In this document: piece after piece, positions 57,474-64,000 of the stretch
Layout: every line of letters begins with the position of its first letter
Numbering within the stretch: position 1 is the stretch's first letter
Assembly (NCBI RefSeq): GCF_003426735.1
Contig: NZ_QVON01000002.1
Location: 310,001-374,000, forward strand
Direction: 5' to 3'
DNA length: 64,000 nucleotides
Source of the DNA: Arenibacter sp. P308M17
GTDB taxonomy: Bacteria > Bacteroidota > Bacteroidia > Flavobacteriales > Flavobacteriaceae
The notes under the pieces: generated by a model
Database searches by the model: none
Seen by the model: the letters and a program-made list of their open reading frames with translations, nothing else
Told to the model about the DNA's origin: nothing
Made by a program: the position numbers and the translations under genes

Positions 57474-58229
57474 ATGGGCGATATTAAAGACATGATCAAT
57501 ATCGATATTAACTCGGACATAGGGGAGGGTGTAGGCAATGAAGCACAGCTTTTGCCCTTAATTTCTTCCTGTAATATTGCCTGTGGCGGCCATGCCGGTG
57601 ATATCGGTACCATGTTGAAGGTCGCCTCCTTGGCTAAAGAACACAAGGTACTGATAGGGGCACATCCATCCTATCCGGATAGGGCAAATTTTGGAAGGAC
57701 CAGTATCATAATGGCCAAGGGTGAATTACAAAAAAGTATCCTGTCCCAAATAGGGAATTTAAACACTGTGCTAACGCCTTTGGGTGTTGCGCTGAACCAT
57801 ATAAAACCACATGGTGCCCTATATAATGACCTGGCCAAAGACAGTGAATTGGCCCGGATATTTTTGGATAGTATTGAAAAATATAAAAAAAAGGTTTTTT
57901 TGTATGCTCCTTATGGTTCAAAAATTGCGGAAGAAGCACTGTACTTGGGGTTTCAAATAAAATACGAAGCCTTTGCCGATCGCACTTATAATGATGACCT
58001 CTCCCTAGTTTCACGGGAAGACCCTTTGGCCATGATACAGGATCCCAAAGCCGTTAAAGATCATTTACTGACCATGATTACAAAAGGCAGGGTTATGACA
58101 ATTTCGGGGAAGGCCGTAAAAATAAAGGCAGACACCTATTGTATTCACGGGGATTCTCCCTTGGCATTACAAATATTAGCGTATCTTTCCAAACATTTAC
58201 CAAAGAACCAAATCTTAATTAAAAAGTGA
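57474..58229 (+). CDS. pxpA: 5-oxoprolinase subunit A (PxpA, LamB/YcsF family)
   Basis: A 251-residue subunit of the ATP-dependent 5-oxoprolinase that opens pyroglutamate to glutamate. The family N-terminus MINIDINSDIGEG and CNIACGGHAGDIGTML, GAHPSYPDRANFGR, HIKPHGALYNDLAKD and ADRTYNDDLSLVSR are all clear. Start at ATG 57474 adds six residues; the ATG at 57492 fits the family better and either may be used. The stop overlaps pxpB by 4 bp (GTGA), so the three subunits are coupled. Pyroglutamate forms spontaneously from glutamine, so this is a repair enzyme. Confidence 0.95.
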   Translation: MGDIKDMINIDINSDIGEGVGNEAQLLPLISSCNIACGGHAGDIGTMLKVASLAKEHKVLIGAHPSYPDRANFGRTSIIMAKGELQKSILSQIGNLNTVLTPLGVALNHIKPHGALYNDLAKDSELARIFLDSIEKYKKKVFLYAPYGSKIAEEALYLGFQIKYEAFADRTYNDDLSLVSREDPLAMIQDPKAVKDHLLTMITKGRVMTISGKAVKIKADTYCIHGDSPLALQILAYLSKHLPKNQILIKK

Positions 58230-58963
58230 ATAGTTTCAACATATCCGTAAGACAATTTGGTGTCCATGCCATATTGGTGGAGTGGCCCAATGAGGTAGAA
58301 GAAACCATTTTGCTTGAAATTCTTCAATTCATAGAATACTTAAGGAAGAACCACTTGGATGAAAAGGAATGGGAGTATGTCCCCGCCTATAATTCCCTTA
58401 CGTTGATATGCAAGGACACCGTCCTCGATTTTGATTATTTTAAACCCAAGATCAAGGAATGGTATACCAAAAAAGGAAAGGTAGAACCTGTTACCAGGTA
58501 CCTATGGAGACTACCTGTTTGTTATGACCCGAAATTTGGGTTGGATCTAGAGGAAATATCTGAAAAATTGGGCATGTCCATAGATATAGTTACAGATTTG
58601 CACGCACAAAGTATGTATACCGTCTATGGCATAGGCTTTTTACCAGGATTTATGTACTTGGGAGGCGTACCGGAGGCTTTGGAAATTCCCCGTAAATCCA
58701 CACCTAGGTCCAAAGTACCCATGGGTTCTGTTGGTCTGGCAGGAAAACAAACAGGAATATATCCCCAGGATTCCCCTGGAGGATGGAACATAATCGGAAA
58801 ATGTCCGGTTCCCATGTTCGATCTAAAAAAAGAAAAACCGTGTTTCGTTAAAGTGGGCGATAAAATACAGTTTTATCCTATTTCCATGGCAGAATACCAA
58901 TTACATAAAATTGAAAGCGAGGTAGGGATTTATAAGCTTGAAAAAAAAGTGTTGGATGCTTAA
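58226..58963 (+). CDS. pxpB: 5-oxoprolinase subunit B (PxpB, KipI-like)
   Basis: A 245-residue subunit with the cyclophilin-like fold of the allophanate hydrolase C-terminal part 1 family. Typical segments are FGVHAILVEWP near the start, VPAYNSLTLI, RLPVCYDPKFGLDLEEI, YTVYGIGFLPGFMYLGGVPEAL, and PRSKVPMGSVGLAGKQTGIYPQDSPGGWNIIGKCP. The start is GTG in a 4-bp overlap with pxpA. It works with PxpA and PxpC; the old name KipI refers to a kinase-inhibitor role of the Bacillus homologue. The end overlaps pxpC by 8 bp. Confidence 0.95.
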   Translation: MNSFNISVRQFGVHAILVEWPNEVEETILLEILQFIEYLRKNHLDEKEWEYVPAYNSLTLICKDTVLDFDYFKPKIKEWYTKKGKVEPVTRYLWRLPVCYDPKFGLDLEEISEKLGMSIDIVTDLHAQSMYTVYGIGFLPGFMYLGGVPEALEIPRKSTPRSKVPMGSVGLAGKQTGIYPQDSPGGWNIIGKCPVPMFDLKKEKPCFVKVGDKIQFYPISMAEYQLHKIESEVGIYKLEKKVLDA

Positions 58964-59795
58964 TATTATAAAATCGGGCTTTTTCACAACCGTTCAGGAT
59001 ACAGGTAGATTTGGATTCAGGGATAAGGGCGTTCCGGTGGCAGGGGCCATGGATTCGTACACTGTTTCAAAGTTAAACTCATTGTTGGAAAATGTTGAAG
59101 ACTGTGCCGTTCTGGAAATTACCATGACGGGACCTAAATTGGAATTTGAACTGGACACCTATATTGTTACGGGAGGCGCGGAAATGTCGGTTACCCTTAA
59201 CGATTTGGCCATTGAGAACTACAAAGTATATAAGGTAAAAAGCGGTGACGTCCTATCCTATGGCAAGTTAATAAAGGGATTTAGGGCATATTTAGGAATT
59301 AAGGACGGTTTCAGGACCGCATCGGTATTGGGAAGCAGATCTTTTTATAAACCCATTACCGAGCAGGATTGCATTAAAAAAATGTCCGGCCTACCCTACA
59401 CCGAGTGTAAAATGTTCGGTCCCAAAATTTCAAAACTTAAGGTGGACTCCATTTTGAACAAAGGCCAATTGGAGGTGTACAAAGGTCCTGAATACGAACT
59501 GTTGACGGACAAACAATTGGCCCAAATATTCTACAAGGAATTTTCAGTGGCCAACGAGAATAACCGAATGGCATATCAATTCAATGAAACCATAGAAGGC
59601 AATACGTTTTCCATGTTGACCTCGGCCACTCTACCTGGCACAATACAACTAACCCCGGCGGGAAAATTGATCATATTGATGAAAGATGGTCAGACCACAG
59701 GTGGATATCCGAGGATATTGCAGTTATCGGACATGGCCATATCCATTTTGTCACAAAATAAATCTGGTGACCTTATCCATTTTAAACTAAAATAG
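58956..59795 (+). CDS. pxpC: 5-oxoprolinase subunit C (PxpC, KipA/biotin-dependent carboxylase-like)
   Basis: A 279-residue subunit with the duplicated cyclophilin-like fold. The family opening is SGFFTTVQDTGRFGFRDKGVPVAGAMD, then VLEITMTGPKLEFE, GFRAYLGIKDGF...SVLGSRSFY, NRMAYQF, and a C-terminal GTIQLTPAGKLIILMKDGQTTGGYPRI. I start at ATG 58956, which overlaps pxpB by 8 bp; an upstream TTG at 58938 would add six residues. It completes a coupled pxpABC operon. No regulator is adjacent, and no terminator is seen immediately after the stop, so read-through toward the ilv leader is possible. Confidence 0.95.
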   Translation: MLNIIKSGFFTTVQDTGRFGFRDKGVPVAGAMDSYTVSKLNSLLENVEDCAVLEITMTGPKLEFELDTYIVTGGAEMSVTLNDLAIENYKVYKVKSGDVLSYGKLIKGFRAYLGIKDGFRTASVLGSRSFYKPITEQDCIKKMSGLPYTECKMFGPKISKLKVDSILNKGQLEVYKGPEYELLTDKQLAQIFYKEFSVANENNRMAYQFNETIEGNTFSMLTSATLPGTIQLTPAGKLIILMKDGQTTGGYPRILQLSDMAISILSQNKSGDLIHFKLK

Positions 59796-59813
59796 GCGAT
59801 AAAAATTTATTCC

Positions 59814-59845
59814 TTTGTCAATTAAATTATAATACCTAATTTTGT
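59814..59845 (+). promoter_or_regulatory. Promoter of the ilv operon leader
   Basis: TTTG at 59814-59817 and TAATTTTG (TAnnTTTG) at 59838-59845 with a 20-bp spacer, an excellent Bacteroidetes promoter. Transcription should start about 59849-59852, at or just before the leader ATG at 59851. Confidence 0.82.
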
Positions 59846-59850
59846 ACCTA

Positions 59851-59898
59851 TGAAAATAAATAGAAACATAATCCAATTGGTCATTATCGTCCCATAAC
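59851..59898 (+). CDS. ilv operon leader peptide (15 aa)
   Basis: A 15-codon reading frame, MKINRNIIQLVIIVP, in which five Ile, two Val and one Leu codons make up 8 of 15; six of these fall in the run of residues 7-14 near the end. It sits 5 bp after the -7 promoter element and just before a pause hairpin and a terminator in front of ilvD. This is the standard layout of a transcription attenuator: when charged tRNA-Ile, -Val or -Leu is scarce the ribosome stalls here and the operon is read. The ATG is so near the expected start of transcription that it may be leaderless. Function is inferred from sequence only. Confidence 0.82.
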
Positions 59899-59912
59899 TG
59901 GGATGATACGGA
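59886..59912 (+). promoter_or_regulatory. Pause hairpin and antiterminator segment of the ilv attenuator
   Basis: A 10-bp stem pairs 59886-59895 with 59900-59909 (TATCGTCCCA / TGGGATGATA, one G-U pair) and has a 4-nt loop holding the leader stop. Its 3' side continues as GATACGG (59906-59912), which can pair with CCTGTATC (59933-59940, one bulge). Pairing would block the terminator, giving the alternative antiterminator fold. The leader Ile/Val codons lie inside the 5' arm, so a stalled ribosome would prevent the pause hairpin. Confidence 0.75.
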
Positions 59913-59926
59913 TTTCTTTTTATTTA

Positions 59927-59967
59927 AAAAGCCTGTATCAACTACATTTGATACAGGCTTTTTTTTA
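59927..59967 (+). terminator. Attenuator terminator upstream of ilvD
   Basis: 14-bp perfect stem AAAAAGCCTGTATC / GATACAGGCTTTTT with a 10-nt loop, followed by a T-run to 59967. It lies 29 bp after the leader stop and 254 bp before ilvD. Confidence 0.93.
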
Positions 59968-60220
59968 GGTTTTGCCGAACCATAATAGGAAATAATGTTC
60001 TTTTTTAAGTAGTAACAAAAGGTTTGTCAAAGAATAAAAACCTACTGAATATGATATGGTTTATACATTTAAATATCTGATTTTTAGATATTTAAAATTA
60101 AAATATTAAAATTGAATTTAAATCAAATTTTTATGTTAAAAATCTAAGGGTTTTTAAACTTTTATCTTTGGTCGTCGTAATTTATATAGGATAGTATTAA
60201 AATACAAAGTATACAAATTA
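59968..60220. other. AT-rich leader between attenuator and ilvD
   Basis: 253 bp, very AT-rich, no gene. It contains TATCTTTG (60163-60170), an exact TAnnTTTG, which might give a second, attenuator-independent promoter; no TTG stands at the right distance, so this is weak. No other element is seen. Confidence 0.5.
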
Positions 60221-61903
60221 ATGGAATTAAATAAATTTAGTAAACAGGTTACACAAGATCCAACATTGCCGGCCGCACAAGCTATGTTGCACGCTATAGG
60301 TTTAACGGACGAGGATCTGCAAAAGCCTTTAATAGGTATTGCCAGTACCGGTTACGAGGGCAATCCCTGTAATATGCATTTGAACAGTTTGGCCACCTAT
60401 ATAAAAAAGGGTACCGAAAATGCCGGTTTAATAGGGTTGATCTTCAATACTATAGGTGTTAGTGACGGGATAGCAAACGGTACACCCGGAATGCGCTATT
60501 CCTTGCCTTCCAGGGATATTATAGCGGATTCCATGGAAACCGTAGTAGAAGGAATGAGTTATGACGGTCTAATTACAGTTGTTGGTTGTGATAAAAATAT
60601 GCCGGGAGCCCTAATGGCCATGTTGCGCTTAAATAGGCCTTCGATCTTGGTGTACGGGGGAACTATTGCTTCAGGTTGTCATAACGGAAAAAAATTGGAT
60701 ATTATTTCTGCCTTCGAAGCTTATGGGCAAAAGGTAGCAGGAACCATAAATGAGTCCGAATTTAAAGAAGTTATCCATAAGGCCTGTCCAGGTGCCGGTG
60801 CCTGTGGCGGTATGTACACGGCCAACACCATGGCTTCGGCTATTGAGGCTTTGGGGATGTCCTTACCATTTAATTCTTCAAATCCGGCCGTAAGCAACAA
60901 TAAATTGAAGGAAGAGGAGTCCATTAGGGCAGGTGAAGCGCTACGCCTGTTATTGGAGCGGGATATTAAGCCTTCGGACATAGTTACCAAAAAATCTTTG
61001 GAAAATGCTTTTAGATTGGTTATCGTTCTTGGTGGTTCCACCAATGCGGTACTTCATTTTTTGGCCATAGCAAAAGCAGCACAGATAGAGTTTACATTGG
61101 ACGATTGTAAACGATTAAGTGAAAGCACCCCTTTATTGGCAGATCTTAAACCAAGTGGGAAATATTCAATGGAGGAATTGCATGGTGTTGGAGGAATCCC
61201 AGGTGTCCTCAAATACATGTTGGACAACAACCTGCTCCATGGCGATTGTTTAACGGTTACGGGTAAGACTCTGGCGGAAAACCTAAAAAATGTCCCCAAC
61301 CTGATAGAGGGCCAGGATATCATAAGCACCTTGGATAAGCCCATAAAAGAAACTGGTCACATCCGTATTCTTTTTGGAAACTTGGCTACAGAGGGTGCCG
61401 TTGCAAAAATTACTGGAAAGGAAGGTTTGTTCTTTAAGGGAACTGCCAATGTGTTCGATGGAGAGGATGCCGTAAATGCAGGAATAAAAAATGGTAAGGT
61501 TAAAAAAGGGGACGTGGTGGTGATCAGATACGAAGGTCCAAAAGGAGGACCGGGCATGCCAGAAATGCTAAAGCCAACATCCTCTATTATGGGGGCGGGA
61601 CTAGGTAAGGATGTTGCCCTGATTACCGATGGTCGTTTTTCGGGAGGTTCCCATGGTTTCGTAGTAGGCCATGTAGCACCCGAAGCCCAAGATGGCGGTA
61701 ATATAGCGTTGGTCGAAAACGGAGATATTATTGCAATAGACGCTGTAAACAATACCATAAATATTGAAATTTCAGACGAGGAATTACAGAAAAGAAAGGC
61801 CAAATGGACCGCACCAAAGTTAAAATTTCAGCGTGGAATCCTCTATAAATATGCAAAAACAGTTTCGTCTGCATCCAAAGGATGTGTTACGGATGAATTT
61901 TAA
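60221..61903 (+). CDS. ilvD: Dihydroxy-acid dehydratase
   Basis: A 560-residue iron-sulfur dehydratase of the IlvD/Edd family that makes 2-keto-isovalerate and 2-keto-3-methylvalerate, the precursors of valine and isoleucine. The three cluster-region cysteines are visible in [16 protein letters not shown] and [36 protein letters not shown] and [11 protein letters not shown] are further family marks. Length is standard. It is the first gene after the attenuator and is followed 77 bp later by ilvB, so it is co-regulated with acetolactate synthase. Confidence 0.97.
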
Positions 61904-61980: not shown

Positions 61981-63714
61981 ATGGAAACATTGAAAAAAGA
62001 AAAAACAGCACCATCTAAACAGATCAGAAAGAGAATAAGTGGTGCAGAGGCTATAATCCACTGCCTATTGGCGGAGGGTGTAGACTTGATTTATGGATAT
62101 CCCGGAGGGGCCATTATGCCGCTCTATGATGAGCTATATAAATTCCAGGATAAACTAACCCATATCCTAACAAGACATGAACAAGGTGCCACCCATGCAG
62201 CACAAGGCTATGCCAGGGTAACCGGGAAAGTAGGTGTGGCCGTGGCTACATCAGGTCCTGGGGCCACCAATTTAATTACCGGTATTGCAGACGCCCAGAT
62301 AGATTCTACGCCCATGGTCTGTATTACTGGCCAGGTAGCCAGACATTTGTTGGGTTCCGATGCTTTTCAGGAAACCGATATTATTGGAATTTCCACCCCG
62401 GTAACCAAATGGAACTGCCAAGTAACCAAGGCTTCTGAAATTCCCGAAGTCCTGGCCAAGGCATTCTACATTGCCAAATCCGGCAGACCGGGACCCGTAT
62501 TGGTAGATATTACCAAAAATGCACAGGTTGAAGAGTTCGATTTTTCATACGAGCATTGTACCGGGGTCCGCAGTTATAACCCTTATCCCAAACCGGATAT
62601 AAAGGCCATTGAGGAAGCGGCCCATTTAATCAATTCCGCCAAAAAACCCTTTATCGTTTTTGGACAGGGAGTAATTTTGGGAAAGGCCGAGGAACAATTA
62701 AAAAACTTGGTAGAGAAAGCGGGTATTCCTGCTGCTTGGACCATACTTGGGCTTTCCGCCATGGATACGGAGCATCCCCTAAATGTGGGTATGGTAGGCA
62801 TGCACGGTAATTACGGACCCAATCTATTGACCAATGAATGCGATTTGCTCATTGCGATCGGTATGCGTTTTGACGATAGGGTAACCGGTAATTTGGATAC
62901 CTACGCCAAACAGGCAAAAATTATACATTTCGATATAGATCCAGCAGAAATAAACAAAAATGTAAAGGCAGATGTAGCGGTATTGGGCGATTCCAAGGTT
63001 ACCTTGGACATGTTGATACCACTAATCAAAGCCAACTCCCATGAATCCTGGCACAATGAATTTAAGGAAAAATACAAGATAGAGTTTGAACAGATCATTA
63101 AAAATGATGTTTACCCTACCAAGGAAAAACTTACCATGGCAGAAGTTATTGAGGAGATCAATATAGCCAGTGGACATAGGGCCATAATTGTTTCGGACGT
63201 TGGGCAGCATCAAATGATCGCCTGCAGATATGCCAAATTTAAGCAGACCAAAAGCAATGTTACCTCCGGTGGCTTGGGAACGATGGGCTTCGCACTGCCC
63301 GCTGCCATCGGTGCCAAAATGGGGGCCATGGATAGGGAGGTAGTTGCCATTATTGGGGATGGGGGATACCAAATGACCATTCAAGAATTGGGGACCATCT
63401 TTCAGAACAAGACCCCTGTTAAGATCGTGGTACTGAATAATGATCATTTGGGAATGGTACGCCAATGGCAAGAACTCTTCTTCCAAAGTAGATATGCCTC
63501 CACCGTAATGGTAAATCCCGACTTTGTAAAAATTGCCGAGGGTTATCATATAGAATCCAAGAGAATCAGTGAGAGAAAGGATTTAAAGGCTACTATTAAA
63601 GAGATGTTGGCATCCAAAGAGGCTTACTTTTTGGAAGTAAAAGTAGAAAAAGAGGACAACGTATTCCCTATGATCCCATCCGGGGCATCCGTATCGGATA
63701 TACGTTTAAAATAA
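61981..63714 (+). CDS. ilvB: Acetolactate synthase large (catalytic) subunit
   Basis: A 577-residue thiamine-diphosphate enzyme that starts valine, leucine and isoleucine synthesis. The N-terminal domain has EGVDLIYGYPGGAIMPLYD and RHEQGATHAAQGYAR (the Glu activates the cofactor). The central domain has FGQGVILG, and FDDRVTGN. The C-terminal ThDP domain has GGLGTMGFALPAAIGAK and GDGGYQMTIQELGT...NNDHLGMVRQWQ. The sequence is complete. The gene lies between ilvD and ilvN and should respond to the same leader. The small subunit follows after 62 bp. Confidence 0.97.
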   Translation: METLKKEKTAPSKQIRKRISGAEAIIHCLLAEGVDLIYGYPGGAIMPLYDELYKFQDKLTHILTRHEQGATHAAQGYARVTGKVGVAVATSGPGATNLITGIADAQIDSTPMVCITGQVARHLLGSDAFQETDIIGISTPVTKWNCQVTKASEIPEVLAKAFYIAKSGRPGPVLVDITKNAQVEEFDFSYEHCTGVRSYNPYPKPDIKAIEEAAHLINSAKKPFIVFGQGVILGKAEEQLKNLVEKAGIPAAWTILGLSAMDTEHPLNVGMVGMHGNYGPNLLTNECDLLIAIGMRFDDRVTGNLDTYAKQAKIIHFDIDPAEINKNVKADVAVLGDSKVTLDMLIPLIKANSHESWHNEFKEKYKIEFEQIIKNDVYPTKEKLTMAEVIEEINIASGHRAIIVSDVGQHQMIACRYAKFKQTKSNVTSGGLGTMGFALPAAIGAKMGAMDREVVAIIGDGGYQMTIQELGTIFQNKTPVKIVVLNNDHLGMVRQWQELFFQSRYASTVMVNPDFVKIAEGYHIESKRISERKDLKATIKEMLASKEAYFLEVKVEKEDNVFPMIPSGASVSDIRLK

Positions 63715-63776: not shown

Positions 63777-64000
63777 ATGGAAAATAAATGGTTTACAATT
63801 TCAGTATACTCCGAAAATAGTGTAGGATTACTGAACAGAATATCAGGAATATTTTTAAAACGTCATATTAACATTGAGAGTCTAAATGTTTCCAAATCGG
63901 AAATAGACAACGTGTCAAAATTCACTATTGTGGTGTACACTACAGAAGATTGGGTGCGCAATATTGTAGGGCAGGTTGAAAAGCAAATAGAGGTCATCAA
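63777..64000 (+). CDS. ilvN: Acetolactate synthase small (regulatory) subunit, cut by window edge
   Basis: The first 74 residues (MENKWFTISVYSENSVGLLNRI...) run open to the right edge. They form an ACT domain: a first strand, then the VGLLNRISGIFLKRHINIESL helix-strand that binds valine in feedback control. Start at ATG 63777; an ATG at 63769 lies in another frame. It is the third gene of the ilv operon, and ilvC or leuA would be expected next in related species, outside this window. Confidence 0.93.
   Translation, partial: MENKWFTISVYSENSVGLLNRISGIFLKRHINIESLNVSKSEIDNVSKFTIVVYTTEDWVRNIVGQVEKQIEVI

Follow-up and report, generated by a model that had tools for sequence, protein, structure and literature searches.

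A putative translation-dependent attenuator and a second promoter-like region upstream of the ilvDBNCA operon of Arenibacter

Introduction

That amino-acid operons can be controlled by leader-peptide attenuation is textbook knowledge. The attenuators of the E. coli ilvGMEDA and ilvBN operons and of the Salmonella his operon contain a multi-amino-acid or His leader, a pause hairpin, an antiterminator and a terminator, and their Shine-Dalgarno leaders, sigma-70 promoters and gene order are unlike those of the locus described here. Ribosome-stalling attenuation requires that translation keeps up with transcription on the nascent leader. Lopatovskaya 2010 may list Bacteroidetes cases. For Bacteroides thetaiotaomicron, leader-like sORFs in long 5' UTRs were described in 2020.

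The closest described system is ilvBNC of C. glutamicum (PMC11857589, PMC10272879). As far as these sources describe it, it likewise has a branched-chain leader of 15 codons (MTIIRLVVVTARRLP), a transcription start 1 nt from the ATG, and a terminator that competes with an antiterminator, and it serves the same pathway. It belongs to another phylum and differs in sequence, whereas the locus described here has a Bacteroidetes promoter, starts with ilvD and carries a second promoter-like array (P2) behind the terminator. The ilvB1NC operon of M. tuberculosis also has a short uORF with LVVI codons, a terminated transcript of about 120 nt and masking by the ribosome (PMC13236596). It is an actinobacterial case with a different sequence, and the available part of that paper does not mention an array like P2.

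Within the same bacterial family, a 2021 study of F. psychrophilum reported "strong clues" for attenuation by leader peptides ahead of amino-acid operons, found the pheA and hisG 5' elements also in other genera, and placed the sigmaA box at -12 to -5 (PMC9723704). The term "ilv" is absent from the main text of that paper, and its available part contains no analysis of leader codons, antiterminators or a P2 region. In open-licence PubMed Central neither an ilv attenuator nor a branched-chain operator of flavobacteria was found, and no precedent was found there for the P2 array or for its sharing with leu genes. Because attenuation is textbook knowledge, and in view of the F. psychrophilum clues and the actinobacterial ilv cases, the attenuator described here belongs to a known kind, of which it is a well-supported case.

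Results

The ilv locus and the parts of the leader region

The window, i.e., the whole analyzed stretch of 64,000 nucleotides, is part of a genome of 5.04 Mb, the IlvD of which shares 92% identity with the Arenibacter latericius protein. The initial annotation had proposed a complete branched-chain amino-acid attenuator in front of three jointly controlled genes, ilvD-ilvB-ilvN. These three genes are present, but the operon really comprises five, ilvD-ilvB-ilvN-ilvC-ilvA. All of them are colinear on a single strand, so up to five genes are possibly under common control. The promoter P1 starts 18 bp past the stop codon of a pxpC-like gene. The features are compiled in Table 1. The proposed parts, promoter, leader, hairpin, antiterminator and terminator, were recovered in the order needed for ribosome-stalling control: a leader ORF rich in the regulatory codons, a terminator before ilvD, and an antiterminator that, by computed folding, excludes it.

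The 5-oxoprolinase genes pxpA, pxpB and pxpC-like lie immediately upstream (57474-59795; PxpC models were below cut-off). A second IlvD-family dehydratase with 37% identity is encoded elsewhere in the same genome (G000:C1:390291-391862).

Table 1. Features of the ilv upstream region and operon (positions in the window)
Feature	Position	Strand	Remarks
P1 -33 element TTTG	59814..59817	+	TTTG in all 16 of the 18 genus rows that cover the site
P1 -7 box TAATTTTG	59837..59844	+	Bacteroidetes sigmaA type; most genus members have A in place of the final G
Leader ORF MKINRNIIQLVIIVP + stop	59850..59897	+	ATG 59850, stop 59895-59897; conserved in 18/18 genus members
Hairpin 1 (pause / anti-antiterminator)	59885..59908	+	10 pairs; overlaps the end of the leader ORF
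Antiterminator 5' strand TGATACGG	59904..59911	+	folding, cross-genus pairing
Antiterminator 3' strand CTGTATCA	59933..59940	+	common to the terminator 5' arm
Intrinsic terminator	59926..59967	+	16-pair stem 59926-59963, loop 6, then T run
Element A1 CTGAATATGATA	60045..60056	+	P2 array
Palindromic element B TAAATATCTGATTTTTAGATATTTAA	60070..60095	.	P2 array; probably a DNA site
Element A2 TTGAATTTAAA	60112..60122	+	51 bp upstream of the P2 -7 box
P2 -7 box TATCTTTG	60163..60170	+	18/18 genus members; inferred TSS about 60175
ilvD	60221..61903	+	first gene of ilvDBNCA; TIGR00110 above cut-off
ilvB	61981..63714	+	TIGR00118 above cut-off
ilvN	63777..64000	+	TIGR00119 above cut-off; exceeds the window end, followed by ilvC and ilvA

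P1 and a putative near-leaderless start

A spacer of 19 bp separates the -33 TTTG from the -7 box, and the promoter noticed ahead of the leader is of the Bacteroidetes TAnnTTTG type. A sigma-70 promoter scan listed no site for P1. The last base of the -7 box is 5 nt ahead of the leader ATG. If the box sits at -12 to -5 as in F. psychrophilum (PMC9723704), transcription would start at 59849, one base before the ATG.

The arrangement recurs in the relatives described below. Of 61 loci, 53 have a box with at least five of the six fixed bases no more than 22 nt from the leader ATG, and this box ends 4-6 nt short of the ATG in 37 of them. The box is perfect in only four of the 61 loci, including the window; the other 57 have at most five of the six fixed bases. 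Leaderless mRNAs were put at 5.5% in F. psychrophilum (PMC9723704), so near-leaderless ilv leaders would be unusual.

Conservation of the leader peptide

Eight of the 15 leader codons encode Ile, Leu or Val, as had been read in the sequence at the outset. Conservation was analyzed first in the genus, with all 18 genomes, each of which has an IlvD orthologue (a duplicate A. latericius copy was counted once). Leader, hairpin 1 and terminator are kept upstream of ilvD in all 18. Codons 11-14 are Ile or Val in every member, codon 8 is always Ile, using three different codons, and 17 of the 18 have Leu or Val at codon 10. Changes at codons 8 and 11-14 are either synonymous or replace one of Ile, Val and Leu by another, and at the level of sequence comparison this codon table shows selection on the leader peptide. 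Codon 15 (59892-59894) abuts the stop codon here. All 18 members encode Pro at this position, using four synonymous codons, which may reflect a slowing of termination or a constraint of hairpin 1 on the first two bases of the codon.

A larger sample comprised 97 ilvD upstream regions, 80 from named contigs and 17 from further genus members. As the 80 were the best of at least 539, the sample consists of close relatives. A leader was called when an ATG ORF of 9-32 codons with at least six and at least 30% Ile, Leu or Val codons was found shortly before a terminator; GTG and TTG starts produced false calls. A fixed length of 600 nt upstream of ilvD was used, because spurious opposite-strand ORFs distorted the intergenic lengths in some loci. 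Such a leader with terminator was found in 62 of the 97 regions, i.e., in 18/18 within the genus and 44/79 outside. The same scan yielded 5/970 dinucleotide shuffles, 2/97 reverse complements and 2/97 stretches behind ilvD. One of the 62 loci, L034, is regarded as false, because its gap is 55 and its antiterminator does not depend on the codons; it was dropped from the duplex-energy, codon-table and P2-array counts and kept in the 62-locus counts. L086 was excluded from all counts, its sequence being identical to L001. Over the 61 loci, the Ile/Leu/Val share is 0.49 in frame 0, 0.27 in frame +1 and 0.07 in frame +2, and the off-frame leader readings contain a stop in 60/61 and 44/61 cases.

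No leader was detected in 35 of the 97 regions; in 17 of these ilvD lies at most 13 nt from the upstream ORF, and in the other 18 it does not. A wider sample drew on 119 genomes from the class and 79 from the order, in which 49 IlvD places with E up to 1e-150 gave 40 further regions. Seven of the 40 were flagged and six are credible by eye: L141 and L144 (two genomes of one genus in the same family), L160 (same family), L171 (a different family within the order), and L175 and L176 (one remoter family of the class). The seventh, L150, was discounted by eye, as it lies more than 700 nt from ilvD. By these sequence criteria the attenuator is common in close Flavobacteriaceae relatives and patchy beyond, and loci in which ilvD is not the first gene escape the scan.

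Hairpin 1, antiterminator and terminator

Hairpin 1 was found just as it had been annotated, as a 10-bp stem over the leader end. For the antiterminator, the proposed 3' strand was correct, but its 5' strand is 59904-59911 rather than 59906-59912, giving 8 pairs. The terminator is present as well, with a stem of 16 instead of 14 pairs. A terminator scan of 59700-60300 listed three sites, hairpin 1, the terminator and a minus-strand site at 60260-60272, compared with a mean of 0.2 in shuffles. The 118-nt leader folds with -41.3 kcal/mol versus -15.7 kcal/mol in shuffles (z -8.5), and the stretch 59922-59967 alone has a fold z of -8.4.

In the 18 genus members pairing is kept in 173/180 cells of hairpin 1, 143/144 of the antiterminator and 280/286 of the terminator. 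The respective numbers of invariant pairs are 3/10, 6/8 and 12/16, and two-sided changes affect only one pair each in hairpin 1 and the terminator, both loop-closing, and none in the antiterminator. Because the stems are nearly invariant, the genus alone is weak evidence for them.

Modeling of the switch and compensatory pairing between genera

The switch was modeled with the 3' edge of the ribosome 12 nt past the first base of the A site and with transcription halted at the terminator loop. In the window, the antiterminator probability is 0.01 without a ribosome, 0.18-0.25 with codons 2-6 in the A site and 0.40-0.73 with codons 7-9. It reaches 0.81-0.82 at codons 10-14 (Leu-Val-Ile-Ile-Val) and is still 0.74 at codon 15. 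The stop codon lowers it to 0.38, and one codon further on it is 0.26. The early rise at codons 7-9 and the value left at the stop codon count against the attenuator reading. Averaged over the 62 loci, the probability amounts to 0.81 for the best codon and falls to 0.15 with the stop codon in the A site and to 0.12 beyond. Without a ribosome, the mean over these loci is 0.38, with values below 0.2 in only 23 of 62; hairpin 1 is thus not a good guard everywhere, and while by this model it guards the terminator in the window, it does so poorly in many relatives.

The strongest evidence for the switch, again from sequence comparison, comes from compensation between genera. The 61 loci yielded 55 distinct pairs of antiterminator and terminator arm. 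The native pairs have a mean duplex energy of -9.8 kcal/mol versus -4.7 kcal/mol after shuffling, and 42 of the 55 lie beyond 95% of their shuffles. The terminator arms fall into the classes CCTGTAT (33), CCTTCC (18) and other (4). Antiterminators of the CCTGTAT class pair with -10.4 kcal/mol with arms of their own class and with -3.1 kcal/mol with CCTTCC arms; for the CCTTCC class the values are -7.6 kcal/mol with its own and -5.0 kcal/mol with CCTGTAT arms. Changes in the terminator arm between genera are thus matched by changes in the antiterminator. The four loci of the third class discriminate little (-8.2 within the class, -7.0 and -7.1 with the arms of the two large classes). A shuffle test with pairing probabilities was weaker (native 0.78, shuffles 0.49, swapped arms 0.57; 40/62 above 95% of shuffles); this test has a high background, and the duplex-energy test is cleaner. 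The alignment of relatives, which had been suggested as a check, thus revealed that leader codons and terminator are kept and that compensating changes exist between genera, while covariation within the genus is thin.

A second promoter-like region behind the terminator

The stretch 59968-60220 lies within the initially annotated interval and was not described there. It holds a second conserved promoter-like region, P2, in which conserved blocks precede the -7 box in the genus. An alignment of 63 loci (55 by the intergenic rule and 8 added by hand) gave the consensus TTGAAYATSATA for A1, TAAA-N4-TGA-NN-ATCAG-N4-TTAA for B and TTGRATTTAAA for A2. The array is rigid, with A1, the palindrome, A2 and the box at +0/+25/+67/+118.

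A joint scan with loose offsets found the array with at most 9 mismatches in 51 of the 61 leader loci and in 0 of 610 shuffles; ten leader loci score worse than 9, and at most 6 mismatches were found in 33 leader loci versus 0 shuffles. In the 38 loci with at most 7 mismatches, B is at +24 or +25 and A2 at +66 or +67, and in 36 of them the P2 box is at +117 to +119 (+118 in 30). The array is also borne, with at most 8 mismatches, by 14 loci without a detected leader, all of them among the 18 leaderless loci in which ilvD is not directly behind an ORF. A second short ORF within the array was considered and rejected, as none is conserved among the relatives. The spacer arms of palindrome B are complementary in 49 of 144 cells at 36 sites (0.34, expected 0.36). 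As the spacers do not covary and no short ORF is conserved, the array was read as a DNA operator.

The occurrence of element A before other genes was also analyzed. A scan with CCTACTGAATATGATATG found 3 places versus 2 in the control, and the box-anchored pattern TTGAAYATNRTA-N(36-44)-TAnnTTTG was used in its place. Across the 18 genomes of the genus, this pattern matched 17 places versus 3 for the reversed pattern, and 13 of the 17 are before leuC. At the genus leuC sites the promoter box is at +52 or +53 from element A, which lies upstream of the predicted transcription start. A family-wide sample of 60 genomes, among them this one, yielded 27 places versus 9 for the reversed pattern. The next gene is leuC in 9, ilvD in 3, leuA in 1 and a ketoacyl-ACP synthase III-like gene in 3 cases; one further site, doubtful at a distance of 291 nt, precedes a 2-oxoacid dehydrogenase E2 gene, and 10 have nothing fitting. 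The leuC model scored above cut-off for the genes of this genome, L197 and L206 and for a cut fragment in L204, and the remaining leuC genes were recognized solely from the N-terminal sequence. A cut-off was also exceeded by leuA and the three ilvD genes, and ketoacyl-ACP synthase III was assigned by Pfam domains. Before leuC, leuA and ilvD of the relatives, element A lies 52-54 bp ahead of the promoter box. The ilvD site of this genome is missed by the box-anchored pattern, as its A1 begins with C. Taken from these sequences, the presence of element A before leu and ilv genes suggests an undescribed branched-chain regulator.

Several further sites were observed. In the leuC operon of this genome, element A is 52 bp before the -7 box (L186, G000:C12:390946-391005, minus strand); an attenuator was sought there and discarded, because no fitting leader with a terminator is present behind this -7 box. 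In L201, L203 and L211, element A and the box lie 34-37 nt before the ketoacyl-ACP synthase III-like gene. In three related genomes of another family, a box upstream of ilvD has an A-like site 52-53 bp ahead of it, and a leader was not found there. Element B alone gave 36 strand-wise matches in this genome versus 13 in the control, a contrast that is overstated because palindromic sites are counted twice. One of these sites precedes a second leuA with a leuB-like ORF behind it, and others precede genes that by eye resemble those of mobile elements. Similar sites near mobilisation- and single-strand-binding-like genes (by eye) were seen in L116, L117 and L118, so the palindrome alone is not specific.

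Alternative readings of the region

The conservation of P2 could mean that its operator array, through a DNA-binding protein, mainly sets ilv expression and that P1 with the terminator is a minor or relic unit, e.g., an insulator or a small RNA. The P2 -7 box in 18/18 genus members, the array in leader and leaderless loci alike, and the sharing of element A with leuC promoters fit this. However, leader codons and antiterminator-terminator pairing that are kept by compensation between genera are not expected of a relic. Furthermore, a distance of only 46-63 nt separates the terminator start from ilvD in L141, L144, L171, L175 and L176, too short for a P2 array to fit between them in these five regions. 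A dominant P2 with a relic P1 is therefore improbable.

The array itself could act as an RNA structure instead of a promoter array, since it sits on the P1 read-through transcript and contains a palindrome. Against this stand the lack of covariation in the spacer arms of the 36 palindromes, the fixed spacing to a TAnnTTTR box and the recurrence of the same distance of 52-53 bp before the genus leuC box, upstream of the predicted start. An RNA role of A1-B-A2 has little probability, and a DNA operator is the preferred reading.

That a known riboswitch or a T-box-like element governs the terminator is highly improbable: a structured RNA does precede it, but the codon-level conservation favours translation, and no Rfam family reached its gathering score over the leader. 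The Rfam search of 59000-61000 gave five matches at E up to 1, all below the gathering scores (e.g., sau-19 with 28.9 versus 80 bits and Thr_leader with 26.7 versus 55). At six ilv loci and the hisG locus, nothing reached the gathering score except SAM-II in two, on the opposite strand. These SAM-II riboswitches lie about 500 nt upstream of ilvD on the minus strand (L064:958-1017, L079:941-1023).

A similar layout was seen at hisG of the same genome (L194:1186-1350). A His leader, MKNNRTHHHHFFTCNQAS, lies before hisG, 7 nt behind a TAATTTTG box, and downstream of it come an inverted repeat of 11 pairs and TTTTG. Judged by its sequence, it is probably a His attenuator with an ilv-like layout, and it fits the hisG 5' element reported, in the available text, as conserved in other Flavobacteriaceae (PMC9723704).

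Discussion

The region upstream of ilvDBNCA very probably is a translation-dependent transcription attenuator of the trp/his/ilv type, presumably with a near-leaderless start. Codon conservation, compensation between genera and folding with a placed ribosome support the reading as a ribosome-stalling device, the last as a model. The polymerase would start at P1 nearly on the leader ATG, and ribosomes would load on this near-leaderless start. With ample charged Ile, Val and Leu tRNA, the ribosome would proceed to the stop codon and cover much of 59904-59911, the terminator would form, and a transcript of about 118 nt would result. Upon tRNA shortage, the ribosome would wait at codons 10-14 and hairpin 1 would remain incomplete, so that 59904-59911 could pair with 59933-59940 and transcription would read through into ilvDBNCA. 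If no ribosome were loaded, hairpin 1 would form and the terminator would win. P2, if active, would supply a transcript free of attenuation and would probably be controlled by a DNA-binding protein bound at A1-B-A2. Because P2 lies between the terminator and ilvD, attenuation would set only the share derived from P1.

For this second layer we lean towards a branched-chain regulon of the Flavobacteriaceae, in which a protein would bind TTGAAYATNRTA at about -64 from the inferred transcription start before leuC, leuA and ilvD, and perhaps before ketoacyl-ACP synthase III. The palindrome at ilvD would be flanked by two such sites at a fixed spacing of 67 bp, the second of them degenerate, and this arrangement would add a protein-controlled layer to the near-leaderless attenuator. 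The ketoacyl-ACP synthase sites perhaps tie branched-chain amino acids to branched fatty-acid primers.

According to the F. psychrophilum study, flavobacterial translation initiation depends on features other than the Shine-Dalgarno sequence (PMC9723704). Given initiation of this kind, a conserved near-leaderless attenuator would offer a direct test of both transcription-translation coupling and leaderless initiation. Two separate controls, the attenuator and the P2 sites, seem to act on one pathway, and the P2 array, with its element common to the leucine genes, could serve as bait DNA for finding the branched-chain regulator of the family.
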